A DNA stretch of 41,358 nucleotides from a virus, in IMG/VR virus record IMGVR_UViG_3300023179_000217, positions 1 to 41,358 of that record; one strand, 5' to 3'. The translations under genes were made by a program, and so were the position numbers. How positions within the stretch are numbered: the stretch's first letter is position 1; the number at the start of each line of letters is the position of its first letter. The notes beneath the pieces were generated by a model. It had not been told where the DNA came from and ran no database searches. It was given only the letters and a program-made list of their open reading frames with translations. Below, in pieces: positions 965 to 5,191 of this stretch.

Positions 965-1218
965 CCTACACCTTCCGAAAGGCCGAGAAGGTCAACCAGT
1001 CCGCGTTAGTGATGGCCTATCTGAAGGCGCATCCGGGCGAGTGGTTCACAGCGCAGCAGATTGCCGAGGCGACTGAGGTTCGCAACCTTAAGATCGTCTA
1101 TTCCACGCTCTACACGTATGGGTGTGTGGGCGTGATCGGCAAAGAGTTGCCGGGGAAGCAGCACGGCGCATTTCGTCAACGCTATTGCTATCAGACACGG
1201 GCAGGGAGGGCGGCGTAA
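961..1218 (+). CDS. Small winged-helix-like protein, unknown role
   Basis: 85 residues. The middle (about residues 15-60: ALVMAYLKAHPGEWFTAQQI, then ATEV and STLYTYGCVG) reads like the helix-turn-helix plus wing found in small phage DNA-binding proteins: a helix, a 'W-F-T-A-x-x-I-A' turn, and a recognition-like helix. The start overlaps the Dam stop and the stop overlaps the C5 methyltransferase start (TAATG). It could regulate or target the flanking methyltransferases, but this is only inferred from position. Confidence 0.6.
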   Translation: MTYTFRKAEKVNQSALVMAYLKAHPGEWFTAQQIAEATEVRNLKIVYSTLYTYGCVGVIGKELPGKQHGAFRQRYCYQTRAGRAA

Positions 1219-2399
1219 TGCGTTACCTCTCGGTCTGCTCAGGGATAGAGGCGGCGTCTGTCGCATGGCATCCGCTCGGCTGGTCGCCGGTTGCGTTTGC
1301 CGAGATCGAGAAGTTTCCGAGTGCGGTGCTCAAGCACCATTATCCGGACGTCCCGAACTGGGACGACATGACTAAATTCAAGGACTGGCCCGATGCAGCT
1401 TTCGATGTTCTCGTCGGCGGAACTCCCTGCCAATCATTCTCAGTCGCAGGACTCCGAAAAGGCATGGATGATCCGCGTGGCAACCTCGCCCTTACGTATC
1501 TCGCAATTCTGGATCGATACCGCCCCACCTGGTGCTGCTGGGAGAACGTGCCCGGCGTGCTGTCATCGGGAGGCGGACGGGACTTTGGTGCCTTCCTCGG
1601 AGGGCTGGGCGAGTTCGGGTATGGGTGGGCCTATCGAATCCTGGACGCTCAGTACTTCGGACTGGCACAACGACGCAAGCGTGTGTTCGTTGTCGCAAAT
1701 CTTAGAGGATGGCAACGTGCCGCGGCGGTTCTATTTGACTCCGCGAGCTTGCGCGGGGATTCTGCGCCGCGCCCAGAAACGGGGCAAGGAGCTACCCCGA
1801 TCCTTGAGGCTGGCGCTCGAACAGGTAAGTCCCATGGCGCGTTCATTCCCGAAGTCGTCGGCACGTTAAGCGACGGCGCACACATGGGGGGGGGGCTTAA
1901 CGGACAAGACGCCTACACCGGGCGCATCTTTGCCGTACCTTTGCCGTACCTAGCGAATCCGTTGACGGCACGCATGGGCAAGGGGATCAACACGACGTGC
2001 GACGAAGGGCAGACGCTGATCCCTTGCGGAGATTCCTTTGACGCGCCAATGGCGATCCGCACGGCCAACACAAACGCGAATGGTCACGGTGTCTCTGAAG
2101 GCGTAGCGCATACGTTAGATCGAGCGCAAGGGCAAGCGATAGCGTTCAGAACTAATCAGACCGGCGCGCTCGACACGGACGGTCACACCACCATGCAAGT
2201 CAGACGACTTACGCCCAGAGAATGCGAAAAACTTCAAGGATTTTCGCCTGACTACACGCTAATCCCCTATCGCGGCAAGCCTGCCGCCGATGGGCCGCGT
2301 TATAAGGCGCTCGGGAATTCGATGGCTGTGCCGGTTATGGCCTGGATTGGCCGGCGTATTCAGATGGTCACGGAACTGGTGAAGGAGGCAGCCGCATGA
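1218..2399 (+). CDS. dcm: C5-cytosine DNA methyltransferase, Dcm type
   Basis: 393 residues from ATG 1218 (TAATG overlap with the preceding stop). Motif I is the SVCSGIEAASVAW segment at the N terminus. The catalytic PCQSFS has its cysteine near residue 71, motif VI ENV is near 109, and motif VIII QRRKRV is near 151-156. A variable target-recognition region of about 170 residues follows, then motifs IX-X (RRLTPRECEKLQGF, ALGNSMAVPVMAWI). The enzyme methylates cytosine C5 in phage DNA. Two oddities lie inside it: a run of ten G at 1886-1895, whose length sets the frame, and a second conserved reading frame at 1393-1869. Confidence 0.92.
   Translation: MRYLSVCSGIEAASVAWHPLGWSPVAFAEIEKFPSAVLKHHYPDVPNWDDMTKFKDWPDAAFDVLVGGTPCQSFSVAGLRKGMDDPRGNLALTYLAILDRYRPTWCCWENVPGVLSSGGGRDFGAFLGGLGEFGYGWAYRILDAQYFGLAQRRKRVFVVANLRGWQRAAAVLFDSASLRGDSAPRPETGQGATPILEAGARTGKSHGAFIPEVVGTLSDGAHMGGGLNGQDAYTGRIFAVPLPYLANPLTARMGKGINTTCDEGQTLIPCGDSFDAPMAIRTANTNANGHGVSEGVAHTLDRAQGQAIAFRTNQTGALDTDGHTTMQVRRLTPRECEKLQGFSPDYTLIPYRGKPAADGPRYKALGNSMAVPVMAWIGRRIQMVTELVKEAAA
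1393..1869 (+). CDS. Overprinted ORF inside the C5 methyltransferase gene
   Basis: 158 codons in the +1 frame of the methyltransferase gene. The product has the pattern that I recall from a stand-alone phage protein family: a GRTCPACC-like segment, then E-x-W-T-L-S-T-S-x-W, then CSLSQILEDGNVPRRFYL, then ACAGILRRAQKRGKELP. The same DNA gives the methyltransferase motif VIII and the following linker in the other frame. No strong ribosome binding site is visible. It may be a real second product, or a relic showing that the stand-alone family arose from this gene. Family similarity is from memory, not from a search. Confidence 0.45.
   Translation: MQLSMFSSAELPANHSQSQDSEKAWMIRVATSPLRISQFWIDTAPPGAAGRTCPACCHREADGTLVPSSEGWASSGMGGPIESWTLSTSDWHNDASVCSLSQILEDGNVPRRFYLTPRACAGILRRAQKRGKELPRSLRLALEQVSPMARSFPKSSAR
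1886..1895 (+). repeat. Homopolymer run of ten G in the dcm gene
   Basis: Ten consecutive G encode the end of Met and three Gly codons in the target-recognition region. With ten G the frame is open; with nine or eleven the C-terminal motifs IX-X would be lost. Such tracts are classical slippage sites for on/off switching of methyltransferases, but they are also prone to sequencing error. Confidence 0.85.
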
Positions 2400-2524: not shown

Positions 2525-2532
2525 GAATGGCC
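2525..2532. repeat. Target-site duplication, left (GAATGGCC)
   Basis: GAATGGCC directly abuts the left inverted repeat and recurs at 5184-5191 next to the right one. An 8-bp duplication fits IS1-family transposition. Confidence 0.85.
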
Positions 2533-2551
2533 GGTAGTGGGTCAGTTTGAA
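2533..2551 (+). repeat. Left terminal inverted repeat of the cassette
   Basis: GGTAGTGGGTCAGTTTGAA; exact reverse complement of 5165-5183. It starts with GGT, as IS1-family ends commonly do. Confidence 0.9.
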
Positions 2552-2596
2552 ATTGTCCTCTCGGTATTCAGTCATGGTGCTATGCGATGATGGGGC

Positions 2597-2893
2597 ATGC
2601 CTAGCCGCTCAAGCAAGCCCAAGCGCGAAGGAAAGGCCCATGACTTCACAACGATTGCCCGACGAGTGGTCGAGCAGGCCATTGGGGAGAAGCTAGACGG
2701 TTCTCCCCTGGACGATCCGAATCAGGGGAAGAACCCAGCCGCAGTTGCGCTAGGCAAGCTGGGCGGGGCTAAGGGTGGCGCGGCTAGAGCGAAGGTGCTA
2801 ACCGCTAGCCGAAGAAAGGAGATCGCCGCGAGAGCGGCGGAAGCTCGATGGTCTAAGCGTCCGCCAGTTCGAGTTCGGCGAGATCAAGAGTAA
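2597..2893 (+). CDS. Small basic Gly/Ala-rich protein of the cassette
   Basis: 98 residues, strongly basic. After an N-terminal part with a predicted helix (about 17-35), the core (about 47-90) has KNPAAVALGKLGGAKGGAAR, then LTASRRKEIAARAAEARW. This 'KGG-x-AR ... RR-EIA-x-AA-ARW' pattern recurs in small proteins of many bacterial chromosomes; I know of no assigned function. It starts 45 bases inside the left cassette end and its 3' end overlaps the convergent gene at 2853-3308 by 41 bases. The pairing with that gene suggests a functional unit, possibly DNA- or RNA-binding. Confidence 0.6.
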   Translation: MPSRSSKPKREGKAHDFTTIARRVVEQAIGEKLDGSPLDDPNQGKNPAAVALGKLGGAKGGAARAKVLTASRRKEIAARAAEARWSKRPPVRVRRDQE

Positions 2894-3308
2894 AGTCGAA
2901 GATCATCTGAATCGGCTTGCCGCTGTTCTGATTCTGGTTGTAACTATCGACGTCGATTTTTAGCTGGCGACAATCGGCGACAACCTGTTGCCTTCTTTGC
3001 TGGAAGGCTGCAGCCATGTGCTCTCTGGTAGCCAGTTTGATGTCAGCCCAGAGAGAGCCCTGCTCGCCCTCCTGCCTGATCGCGTGCTTGGATCGAACAC
3101 GCCGTCCTTGCGGGTCCGTTATGTACTGTTCCCGCAGCGCACGCGAGAGGTCTTCGGCAAATTGCCTCAGAATGCCTTCACGGTGTGGCTCCCACAAACC
3201 AGAGTCTAGCGCCCACGCTCCGACCTCTTTGGTTGTGTATTCAGTTCGCCCGGTTGCAGCCTGATACCTGTCGGCCAAGGCTGCCATCTGTTCGTTGTAC
3301 TTCGCCAT
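2853..3308 (-). CDS. Third gene of the higBA operon, unknown function
   Basis: 151 residues, mostly charged and helical, without membrane segments. It contains a TEYTTKEVGAWALDSGLW segment (about 22-39), a basic segment with RRVRSKHAIRQEGEQGSLWA (about 68-88) and a DVDSYNQNQNSGKPIQM segment near the C terminus. A strong Shine-Dalgarno (GGAGG) precedes its ATG, and it starts only 12 bases after higA on the same strand, so it is cotranscribed with the toxin-antitoxin pair. I do not recognise a catalytic motif. Possible roles include an accessory antitoxin, a regulator or an independent defence factor. Confidence 0.65.
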   Translation of the reverse strand: MAKYNEQMAALADRYQAATGRTEYTTKEVGAWALDSGLWEPHREGILRQFAEDLSRALREQYITDPQGRRVRSKHAIRQEGEQGSLWADIKLATREHMAAAFQQRRQQVVADCRQLKIDVDSYNQNQNSGKPIQMIFDFTLDLAELELADA

Positions 3309-3320
3309 TGAACCTCCTAC

Positions 3321-4484
3321 CTACACTGCCAGTGGCTCGTAGCCCCAACCGTCCGTAATAGCGTTAGCCGTAATAGTTGACCTGAGTTTGTCGCGCAGCA
3401 CGTCTCGACTATGCGACCACTCGATCTCCTTTCGGTGTTGCAATTGGCCAACAACGAAAGCCGGGTGAACGTCCAGCCGTTTTGCGAACAGACGAATGCG
3501 TTCTCTTGAATACAGCGGTCGCACCCTGTTGATAAAATTCTCTAGTTCGGCGCTGCCGACTAAGAAATCGACGGAGAAAAGGTCGGCCGCCCTTTCTGCC
3601 TCGGACTTATCCTCTTTGGCGGTTGCGTCCTGCCCTACTAACGCGATGTCCACAACTCCATCCCCGCCCTGGCCATCGCGATTTTTTACGTGACCCATTT
3701 CGTGCATCAGGGTGAACCAAAACCAATCCAATCGTTCGAACCGCATCGACATCGCGATCACTGGCGATGCCTTGTCAAGCCAGATACAACCGCCGTCCAG
3801 CCGCGTCTGCGGCAAGTGCTCGATTACAAGAAACCTTATCCCGTGGTCAGCCAGCACGCGAGGCACATGCCTAGACTCCTCGGGATCATTTAGCAGTAAC
3901 CGCAAACGCGCCAGGCAGTCGTTGAATGCCGCGTCGGAAAATACTCGACTAACCGTCACAGCCCGAGCAAGATTCTTAGCCCTGGCCATCCACGCCTTGT
4001 GTGATGTCGTTGGCGCTTTATAGTCAGCGGACATCCGCGCTGCAAACGGAAGTTGAAGTTCTCGCAGGGACTCGACATTAGGCACACCGAAAAAATCCGT
4101 CACTTGTTTTTCCAGAACGCCGATGTCGTCTGCCGCTCGAATCCATCCGCGCCGAAGCATTTCTCTTACTGGCGCGAGTTCGTAAAGCTGACCGCGTCGT
4201 GAAACTGTTTCTCGTGTGGCGCGGCTAGTAAGCCAAGCGCGATACGAAGTCTCAAGGTTCATCCAGTATTCCGGCCCAGTTCCAAAGGCGTCACCGAGAA
4301 GAGTTGCCATCTCGGGCTTCAGAGCGACTTTGCCGTTAACCAGTGCGTGAATGTCACGCGGAGACTTCCCAACGATCTGGGCCAAATCAGCTTGGCTCCA
4401 TCCGCGTGCTTCCATTTCTTCCTTGAGGAAGTCGGTCACCGGGAATGCCTCTGCTGGAATCATCTGGGTCATCGTCATCACCAT
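3321..4484 (-). CDS. higA: HigA-type antitoxin fused to ImmA/IrrE metallopeptidase domain
   Basis: 387 residues. The N-terminal Xre/HigA helix-turn-helix (about 29-52, WSQADLAQIVGKSPRDIHAL) is followed by the HigA helical region (MATLLGDAFGTGPEYWMNLE). The C-terminal half is an ImmA/IrrE-like zinc peptidase with LMHEMGHV (HExxH near 260-264). In this family the HTH part neutralises the HigB toxin and represses the operon; the peptidase part may make the antitoxin responsive to stress or to other factors. It follows higB by 11 bases. The toxin-first order is characteristic of higBA. Confidence 0.88.
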   Translation of the reverse strand: MVMTMTQMIPAEAFPVTDFLKEEMEARGWSQADLAQIVGKSPRDIHALVNGKVALKPEMATLLGDAFGTGPEYWMNLETSYRAWLTSRATRETVSRRGQLYELAPVREMLRRGWIRAADDIGVLEKQVTDFFGVPNVESLRELQLPFAARMSADYKAPTTSHKAWMARAKNLARAVTVSRVFSDAAFNDCLARLRLLLNDPEESRHVPRVLADHGIRFLVIEHLPQTRLDGGCIWLDKASPVIAMSMRFERLDWFWFTLMHEMGHVKNRDGQGGDGVVDIALVGQDATAKEDKSEAERAADLFSVDFLVGSAELENFINRVRPLYSRERIRLFAKRLDVHPAFVVGQLQHRKEIEWSHSRDVLRDKLRSTITANAITDGWGYEPLAV

Positions 4485-4495
4485 ATCCGGGAGGG

Positions 4496-4801
4496 TTAGT
4501 GGTAATCCTCAATACCTACGACCACCACCGTCTTCTTTCCGCCTAGATCGTCTGCCTCCGATAGCTCGACAATTAAGCGCCACTGATCGTTAATTCGCAT
4601 TGATCGTTGATGAGAGCGATCTCCCTGTAACTTCTCAAAATGCAAAGACTTGACGGCATAGAACGTGCGTTCATCTAGGGCCGCCCTGATCTGCTGCATC
4701 CGGCGTCGAAATCCGGAAACGATCTCCCTTGATAGGCCGCCATTGAAGTCGGCGTCAGCTTCCATCCGCTCCAGTTGGGCGTCTTTGTGGATGACGCGCA
4801 T
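4496..4801 (-). CDS. higB: HigB toxin, RelE/ParE superfamily mRNA interferase
   Basis: 101 residues. The C-terminal pattern SLHFEKLQGDR, then SMRINDQWRLIVEL and finally IEDYH is the hallmark of HigB-like RelE-family toxins, which cleave mRNA on the ribosome. The family length (about 92-105) is intact, and the basic patch (R-S-x-R-I-N-x-Q-W-R) expected to contact RNA is present. First gene of the minus-strand operon; an AT-rich palindromic region lies just upstream. The toxin probably stabilises the cassette and, through it, the phage or lysogen. Confidence 0.9.
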   Translation of the reverse strand: MRVIHKDAQLERMEADADFNGGLSREIVSGFRRRMQQIRAALDERTFYAVKSLHFEKLQGDRSHQRSMRINDQWRLIVELSEADDLGGKKTVVVVGIEDYH

Positions 4802-4846
4802 GCAGTTTTGTGAGTTTACGGCCTTGGCCGCGTTGTGTCAATATCG

Positions 4847-4867
4847 AATTTCGAAATTTGAAATTTC
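4847..4867. promoter_or_regulatory. Probable HigA operator, overlapping palindromes upstream of higB
   Basis: AATTTCGAAATT (4847-4858) is a perfect palindrome. It overlaps a second one, GAAATTT-G-AAATTTC (4853-4867). They lie 46-66 bases upstream of the higB start in a very AT-rich stretch, the expected place for autoregulation by the HTH antitoxin. The same stretch is upstream of the transposase remnant on the other strand. Confidence 0.6.
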
Positions 4868-4905
4868 ATATTTACTTTCTTGTCCGTTTAAGTATTATGG
4901 TCAAT

Positions 4906-5183
4906 ATGAACCGCCTATCGAACCAGCAGCGTAAAGCCGTGGTCGCCTCCCTCGTCGAGGGCAACAGCATCCGCGCCACTGTGCGAATGACTGGGGTGGC
5001 GAAGAACACCGTGTCAAAGCTGCTGGTCGATCTCGGGGCGGCGTGTTCGGAATACCAGAACAAAACCCTCCGCAACCTCACGTGCAAGCGCGTTCAGTGT
5101 GACGAGATTTGGGCGTTCTGCTCGATGGCGTTCTCGGAATTGAGCCTATTAATTAGGGTCTGTATTCAAACTGACCCACTACC
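4906..5183 (+). pseudogene. IS1-family transposase, truncated (N-terminal part only)
   Basis: From ATG 4906 (an in-frame ATG at 4897 is also possible) the frame gives MNRLSNQQRKAVVASLVEGN, then SIRATVRMTGVAKNTVSKLL and CDEIWAFC. This is the helix-turn-helix and start of the catalytic region of IS1-like transposases (usual length well over 200 residues). After CDEIWAFC the similarity stops: the rest of the DDE domain is missing, and the sequence passes within about 70 bases to the right inverted repeat. The ORF formally runs on to 5292 in flanking phage DNA. An internal deletion is the simplest explanation; the element cannot move by itself. Confidence 0.85.
5165..5183 (-). repeat. Right terminal inverted repeat of the cassette
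   Basis: TTCAAACTGACCCACTACC, the exact reverse complement of 2533-2551. It marks the outer boundary of the element. Confidence 0.9.
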
Positions 5184-5191
5184 GAATGGCC
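5184..5191. repeat. Target-site duplication, right (GAATGGCC)
   Basis: Second copy of the 8-bp GAATGGCC found at 2525-2532. The phage gene frame resumes at 5192. Confidence 0.85.

Follow-up and report, generated by a model that had tools for sequence, protein, structure and literature searches.

The stretch of viral DNA considered here (IMG/VR record IMGVR_UViG_3300023179_000217, positions 1 to 41,358; hereafter the window) contains at 2533-5183 a 2651-bp insert, bounded by perfect terminal inverted repeats within a target duplication, that encloses a fragment of an IS1-like transposase, an operon of three cargo genes and a further small gene, orf98. The ends of this insert are those of a widespread family of insertion sequence (IS) elements that carry passenger genes. 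The features of the window copy, which include a gene for a helix-turn-helix (HTH) domain fused to an M78 metalloprotease (HTH-M78), are as follows.

2525-2532, no strand: left copy of the target duplication, 8 bp, GAATGGCC
2533-2551, plus strand: left terminal inverted repeat, 19 bp, GGTAGTGGGTCAGTTTGAA
2597-2893, plus strand: orf98, a small basic protein, second core gene of the family; the start codon is 64 nt inside the left tip
2853-3308, minus strand: orf151, last of the three cargo-operon genes; predicted fold confident, adjoins the HTH-M78 gene
3321-4484, minus strand: HTH (HigA-like) and M78/ImmA-IrrE metalloprotease fusion, 387 aa (Pfam, PADLOC)
4496-4801, minus strand: HigB-like (RelE superfamily) toxin-like protein, 101 aa, first gene of the cargo operon (Pfam, PHROG)
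4853-4867, no strand: palindrome GAAATTTGAAATTTC, in the gap that separates the transposase fragment from the divergent higB-like gene
4906-5121, plus strand: IS1-like transposase, N-terminal 72 residues only (helix-turn-helix, DEIW)
5165-5183, minus strand: right terminal inverted repeat, matching the left end at 19/19 positions
5184-5191, no strand: right copy of the target duplication, 8 bp, GAATGGCC

A first-pass annotation of this DNA had described the 19-bp inverted ends, the 8-bp duplication and the location within a phage, and all three are borne out; the record is that of a phage, as its terminase large subunit and portal genes indicate. The repeat search returned an inverted pair of 20 bp, the extra base being a chance pairing of the flanking C/G. 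For a 20-bp perfect inverted pair at most 3 kb apart together with an 8-bp duplication, the expectation over the whole window is ~1e-8, and allowing as many as 3 mismatches yields no other such end pair in the record. G+C content is 54.8% in the insert and 62.9% in the remaining phage. The perfect duplication agrees with the earlier description of the element as freshly inserted, although no dating is possible. A 64-aa phage frame rejoined by removing the insert was considered as proof of insertion and lends weak support, its length being 64 aa with the insert present as well. Just upstream of the insertion (window 1122-2399) the phage encodes a cytosine-5 DNA methyltransferase. A search for the phage host with the portal, covering 487 genomes, gave a single weak match.

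The transposase homology of the window copy (MNRLSNQ...CDEIWAFC) extends from 4906 to 5121 and ends there, as first annotated; what does not end there is the reading frame, which stays open, without homology past 5121, through the right end to 5292. The fragment keeps residues 1-72 of about 280 and matches NF033558 with an E value of 2.4e-05, under the cut-off of that model. A full-length relative (L070) scores 30.2 bits against PF03400 (DDE_Tnp_IS1; cut-off 24.1), and plasmid relatives carry the NCBI annotation 'IS1 family transposase'. The 24 family transposases that were aligned are about 270-300 residues each; family relatives have a single uninterrupted frame, in contrast to the insA-insB frameshift arrangement of classical IS1. 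Invariant residues include D66/E67, D138, and E204, and the conserved acidic residues are present in 23 of the 24. In 14 of the 24 the gene closes within the inverted repeat, with its stop codon 9 bp short of the tip, so that gene and end overlap in these elements. Truncation after residue 72 removes D138 and E204; since only D66/E67 is retained, the window transposase should, judging by these residues, be catalytically dead.

Ahead of the transposase, 15 of 60 elements have an internal motif that resembles the ends at three or fewer mismatches (shuffled mean 3.2); the window copy lacks it. The right-end core TCAAACTGACCC occurs internally upstream of the transposase in L007, L045, L103, L113, L277, L306, L023, and others, often 52-55 nt ahead of the transposase start; this copy is possibly a site of self-regulation. 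An unannotated full-length transposase relative with 33% identity is present in the jumbo phage vB_BpoS-Gurke of Brevundimonas (ON529850.1, 174791-175666).

More than 200 stretches of viral and bacterial DNA hold the same ends: an exact 19-mer scan of viral contigs gave 93, and bacterial genomes, queried with the 19-mer plus two more bases, gave at least 119, from Pseudomonadota, Acidobacteriota, Nitrospirota, Bacteroidota, Verrucomicrobiota, and other phyla. An element was taken as closed when an exact end was paired with its inverted mate; 80 elements were closed, the shortest 110 bp and the longest 4.3 kb, and 51 of these have an exact target duplication (48 of 8 bp, three of 9 bp). The combination of exact left end, inverted mate, and duplication was found at 38 loci with the real mate and at none with a shuffled mate (30 trials). 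Dozens of elements therefore share the ends while differing in cargo, and full-length transposases lie between the same ends, the two comparisons that the first-pass annotation had called for; its proposal withstood this test. The family backbone runs in the order left end, orf98, variable cargo, transposase, right end. Every full-transposase relative carries passengers, and among elements with both ends found there is no IS with a full transposase alone. The presence of passengers does not result from loss of the transposase, as full-size relatives have both passengers and an intact transposase. About one in ten of the Acidobacteriota species sampled and one in 13 of the Alphaproteobacteria contain the family, which is widespread and apparently little described; no IS1-like element with toxin-antitoxin (TA) or defence cargo was found in the open literature (subscription papers and ISfinder lay outside this search).

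A tRNA-Pro (TGG) gene is located within a 1128-bp element that bears these ends (L010:4993-5077). In genome G009, variant ends GGTAGTGTCTCAGTTTGAA surround a family transposase in a stretch of ~5.3 kb (contig 17, 238223-243513). The same genome was considered as multi-copy proof of movement and set aside: its 878-bp copies share identical flanks and so belong to a larger repeat and do not represent separate insertions.

The gene orf98, which had been counted with orf151 as one of two unknown cargo genes, has the behaviour of a second core gene and not that of cargo. A profile search detected an orf98 homologue in 53 of 55 transposase-bearing elements. This set includes loci from Acidobacteriota and Alphaproteobacteria that were fetched by transposase similarity alone, so the end-based search does not explain why orf98 and the transposase occur together. 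The gene is nearly always on the transposase strand, toward the opposite end of the element; many copies have their start codon some 65 nt inside the tip. Transposase and orf98 distances are correlated (Mantel r 0.33, with 0 of 2000 shuffles as high), and r is 0.54 within the PD-Lambda-2-like elements discussed below. The protein is basic, with an N-terminal helix followed by the motif GxxKGGxARA...IAxKAAxARW; its AlphaFold model is mostly helical and of low confidence (pTM 0.33).

The two elements of the 55 that lack orf98 have instead a P63C-domain gene whose product carries the same KGG-type motif at its N-terminus. P63C cargo proteins that start with the C-terminal KGG-type motif of orf98 are found in L042, L111, L166, L178, L207, L282, and L315, and one of them matches PHROG 2384, which also detects orf98; such proteins are a possible origin or partner of orf98. 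A protein search for orf98 in plasmids gave no match, probably owing to the low-complexity filter; in one plasmid record an orf98 homologue is annotated as 'histone H1'.

The cargo of the window copy was first read as a higB-higA operon. The order stands, the HigB-like gene preceding one for an HTH antitoxin-like protein; the 'higA' gene, however, encodes an HTH domain fused to an M78 metalloprotease. The fusion protein matches Pfam HTH_3 (8.3e-09) and Peptidase_M78 (1.2e-04), has an intact HExxH at residues 261-265, and matches the PADLOC model PD-Lambda-2_B with an E value of 1.2e-40. The HigB-like protein exceeds the cut-off of PF05015 (HigB-like_toxin; 1.4e-06) and matches PHROG 3066 (toxin of TA system; 6.3e-09). 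No Pfam, NCBIfam, or PADLOC family matched orf151, and its predicted fold (pLDDT 89) had no match in the PDB or among predicted viral structures. The half-length of the palindrome GAAATTTGAAATTTC, a possible operator, is reached in 2.6% of shuffles.

In PD-Lambda-2 of E. coli the fusion protein alone is toxic, the HigB-like protein relieves this toxicity, and defence requires a third gene (Vassallo et al., 2022; PMC9519451). The window cargo has the same layout (HigB-like gene, HTH-peptidase fusion, third gene) and a counterpart of component B, in which an HTH domain is fused to a peptidase; a difference is that most IS-borne versions are without the HigB-like gene. By analogy, the window cargo probably works like PD-Lambda-2, without being classed as a member.

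Among the end-paired elements, 10 have an HTH-M78 gene directly beside orf151, and the genome sample and plasmids provide more cases. A HigB-like gene is carried by a minority (the window copy, L113, L159, L163, L051, L290, and L311). This cargo class has 16 elements with a full transposase; orf151 adjoins the HTH-M78 gene in all of them, and no HigB-like gene was found in 11. Other elements carry a second HTH-M78 type, matching RmrA of RosmerTA, or P63C proteins, proteasome-like hydrolases, PemK, SocA, DUF6932, DUF433, an MT-A70 methylase with an AAA_21 ATPase, BglII endonuclease, Gp49, HipA_2, NYN, and others; in a family relative on an Acidiphilium plasmid a RES-Xre pair adjoins the transposase. 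Many of these passengers resemble TA or anti-phage modules. Five cargo classes placed on the tree of 55 transposases require 27 changes, not fewer than with shuffled labels (mean 26.1), a scatter like that of random placement, and at least nine changes are forced by well-supported branches for the PD-Lambda-2-like class. The backbone is inherited as a unit and the cargo is exchanged between copies. The three-gene layout also exists in Achromobacter phage CF418P1 and on a plasmid of Paraburkholderia, with no transposase adjacent in either case and, on the plasmid, an orf151 homologue in third place; the cargo was therefore probably an existing module that the IS captured.

The explanation that accounts best for these observations as a whole, and that we hold to be likely, is that the window element is a non-autonomous copy of this passenger-carrying IS1-like family. 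It would be moved, or would have been moved, in trans by the full-length transposase of a relative able to recognise the 19-bp ends; alternatively, the copy may have lost its transposase core after insertion. The HigB-like, HTH-M78, and orf151 proteins would form a TA-type abortive-infection module, similar to PD-Lambda-2, that stabilises the element and may guard the host of the phage against other phages. The earlier reading of the copy as a mobile insertion cassette (MIC) holds, as passengers lie between IS ends within a target duplication and the transposase core is lost. Transposase-less elements with exact duplications are common in the family (e.g., L034, L068, L152, L016, L008, and L061). 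Genome G011, a Bacteroidota metagenome-assembled genome (loci L104, L107, L142, and L170), has about 43 copies of the ends, several of them in hairpin-like end-only elements of about 150 bp with exact duplications, and no transposase was detected in it. Because transposase-less and end-only copies with duplications exist, use of the ends in trans is supported, short of proof.

Several points weigh on the other side. The transposase of G011 may merely be missing from its assembly. No near-identical second copy of the window element was found, so that its own mobility after loss of the transposase can only be surmised. No empty site was found either, the nearest phage relative (L215, 58% identity in the terminase) being too diverged in this region. 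As regards the cargo, the PD-Lambda-2_C model (374 positions) had no match in the window or in the operons of relatives, and the HigB-like protein did not match the PADLOC model PD-Lambda-2_A, so that orf151 is not PD-Lambda-2 C and a PD-Lambda-2-like activity is an analogy.

Three other accounts can be set against the non-autonomous, trans-mobilised copy. An autonomous passenger-carrying element of the transporter IS (tIS) type may have inserted and had its transposase core deleted later, within the phage, leaving a decaying remnant that is not mobilised in trans. The intact transposase of full-size relatives, the preservation in the window copy of the N-terminal 72 codons with promoter and start, and the occurrence of internal-deletion derivatives of the transposase in several other copies all suit this account, which we regard as a serious possibility at somewhat less than even chances; the abundance of transposase-less elements with exact duplications fits movement in trans, and a single copy gives no order of events. 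The cargo might alternatively be a plain HigBA addiction module trapped in an IS, stabilising the element with no anti-phage role. It has the higBA-like order of toxin gene before HTH gene, and TA modules are already known as transposon passengers (PMC7157771), yet this is rather unlikely: the antitoxin-like gene is a protease fusion with a PD-Lambda-2_B match, the constant partners in full-transposase elements of the class are HTH-M78 and orf151 while the HigB-like gene is mostly not found, and anti-phage-type genes are among the cargo of other elements. A PD-Lambda-2-like three-gene module fits better than the plain higBA pair first proposed. Finally, the ends and duplication could be coincidental or an unrelated repeat around native phage morons, for which the three-gene operons lacking a neighbouring transposase (Achromobacter phage CF418P1 and the Paraburkholderia plasmid) might be cited; the chance of such ends with a duplication (about 1e-8) and the lower G+C content of the insert make this extremely improbable, and the recurrence of ends, gene order, and orf98 in many unrelated genomes refutes coincidence.

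IS elements are usually regarded as consisting of a transposase only. In this IS1-like family passengers are the rule and their exchange is frequent, and many passengers are anti-phage-like or TA-like. The family behind the window copy is thus more interesting than the copy itself, having two core genes and a slot in which passengers are exchanged. It would provide a vehicle of about 3 kb with which small defence modules can hop between chromosomes, plasmids, and phage genomes, and the slot between orf98 and the transposase could be mined for undescribed defence genes. More tentatively, and with the balance leaning against it, the family might represent a distinct class of compact transposon with two core genes, in which transposition or the exchange of cargo depends on orf98. 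Such a transposon would be a carrier of general use, reshuffling anti-phage and TA modules across bacteria, phages, and plasmids, and orf151 would be a defence component not described before, with the HTH-M78 protease as its partner.

With the IS1 family these elements share a DDE transposase, matching terminal inverted repeats, and duplications of 8-9 bp; they differ in the single frame of about 275-300 residues, the element length of 2.1-4.3 kb, and the near-universal presence of orf98 and passengers, no transposase-only form having been seen. Their ends presumably resemble the IS1 consensus, and long IS1 elements (ISMhu11 group) are listed in ISfinder. MICs and tIS likewise have passengers between IS ends, without a working transposase in the former and with one in the latter, tIS being defined as IS with passengers and a working transposase (PMC7986276); distinctive here are the fixed second core gene and the frequent exchange, in many phyla and phages, of cargo rich in TA and anti-phage-type genes. 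Transposons of the Tn3 family also carry TA modules, HigA types included, beside their transposition genes (PMC7157771), whereas the present elements have a transposase of another family, no resolvase, a protease-fused antitoxin, and a third gene. Tn7-like transposons resemble them in having defence-rich cargo that is uncoupled from the transposition core, but are 14-29 kb in median length, with several core genes (PMC8649781), compared with about 3 kb and two core genes in the family described here.

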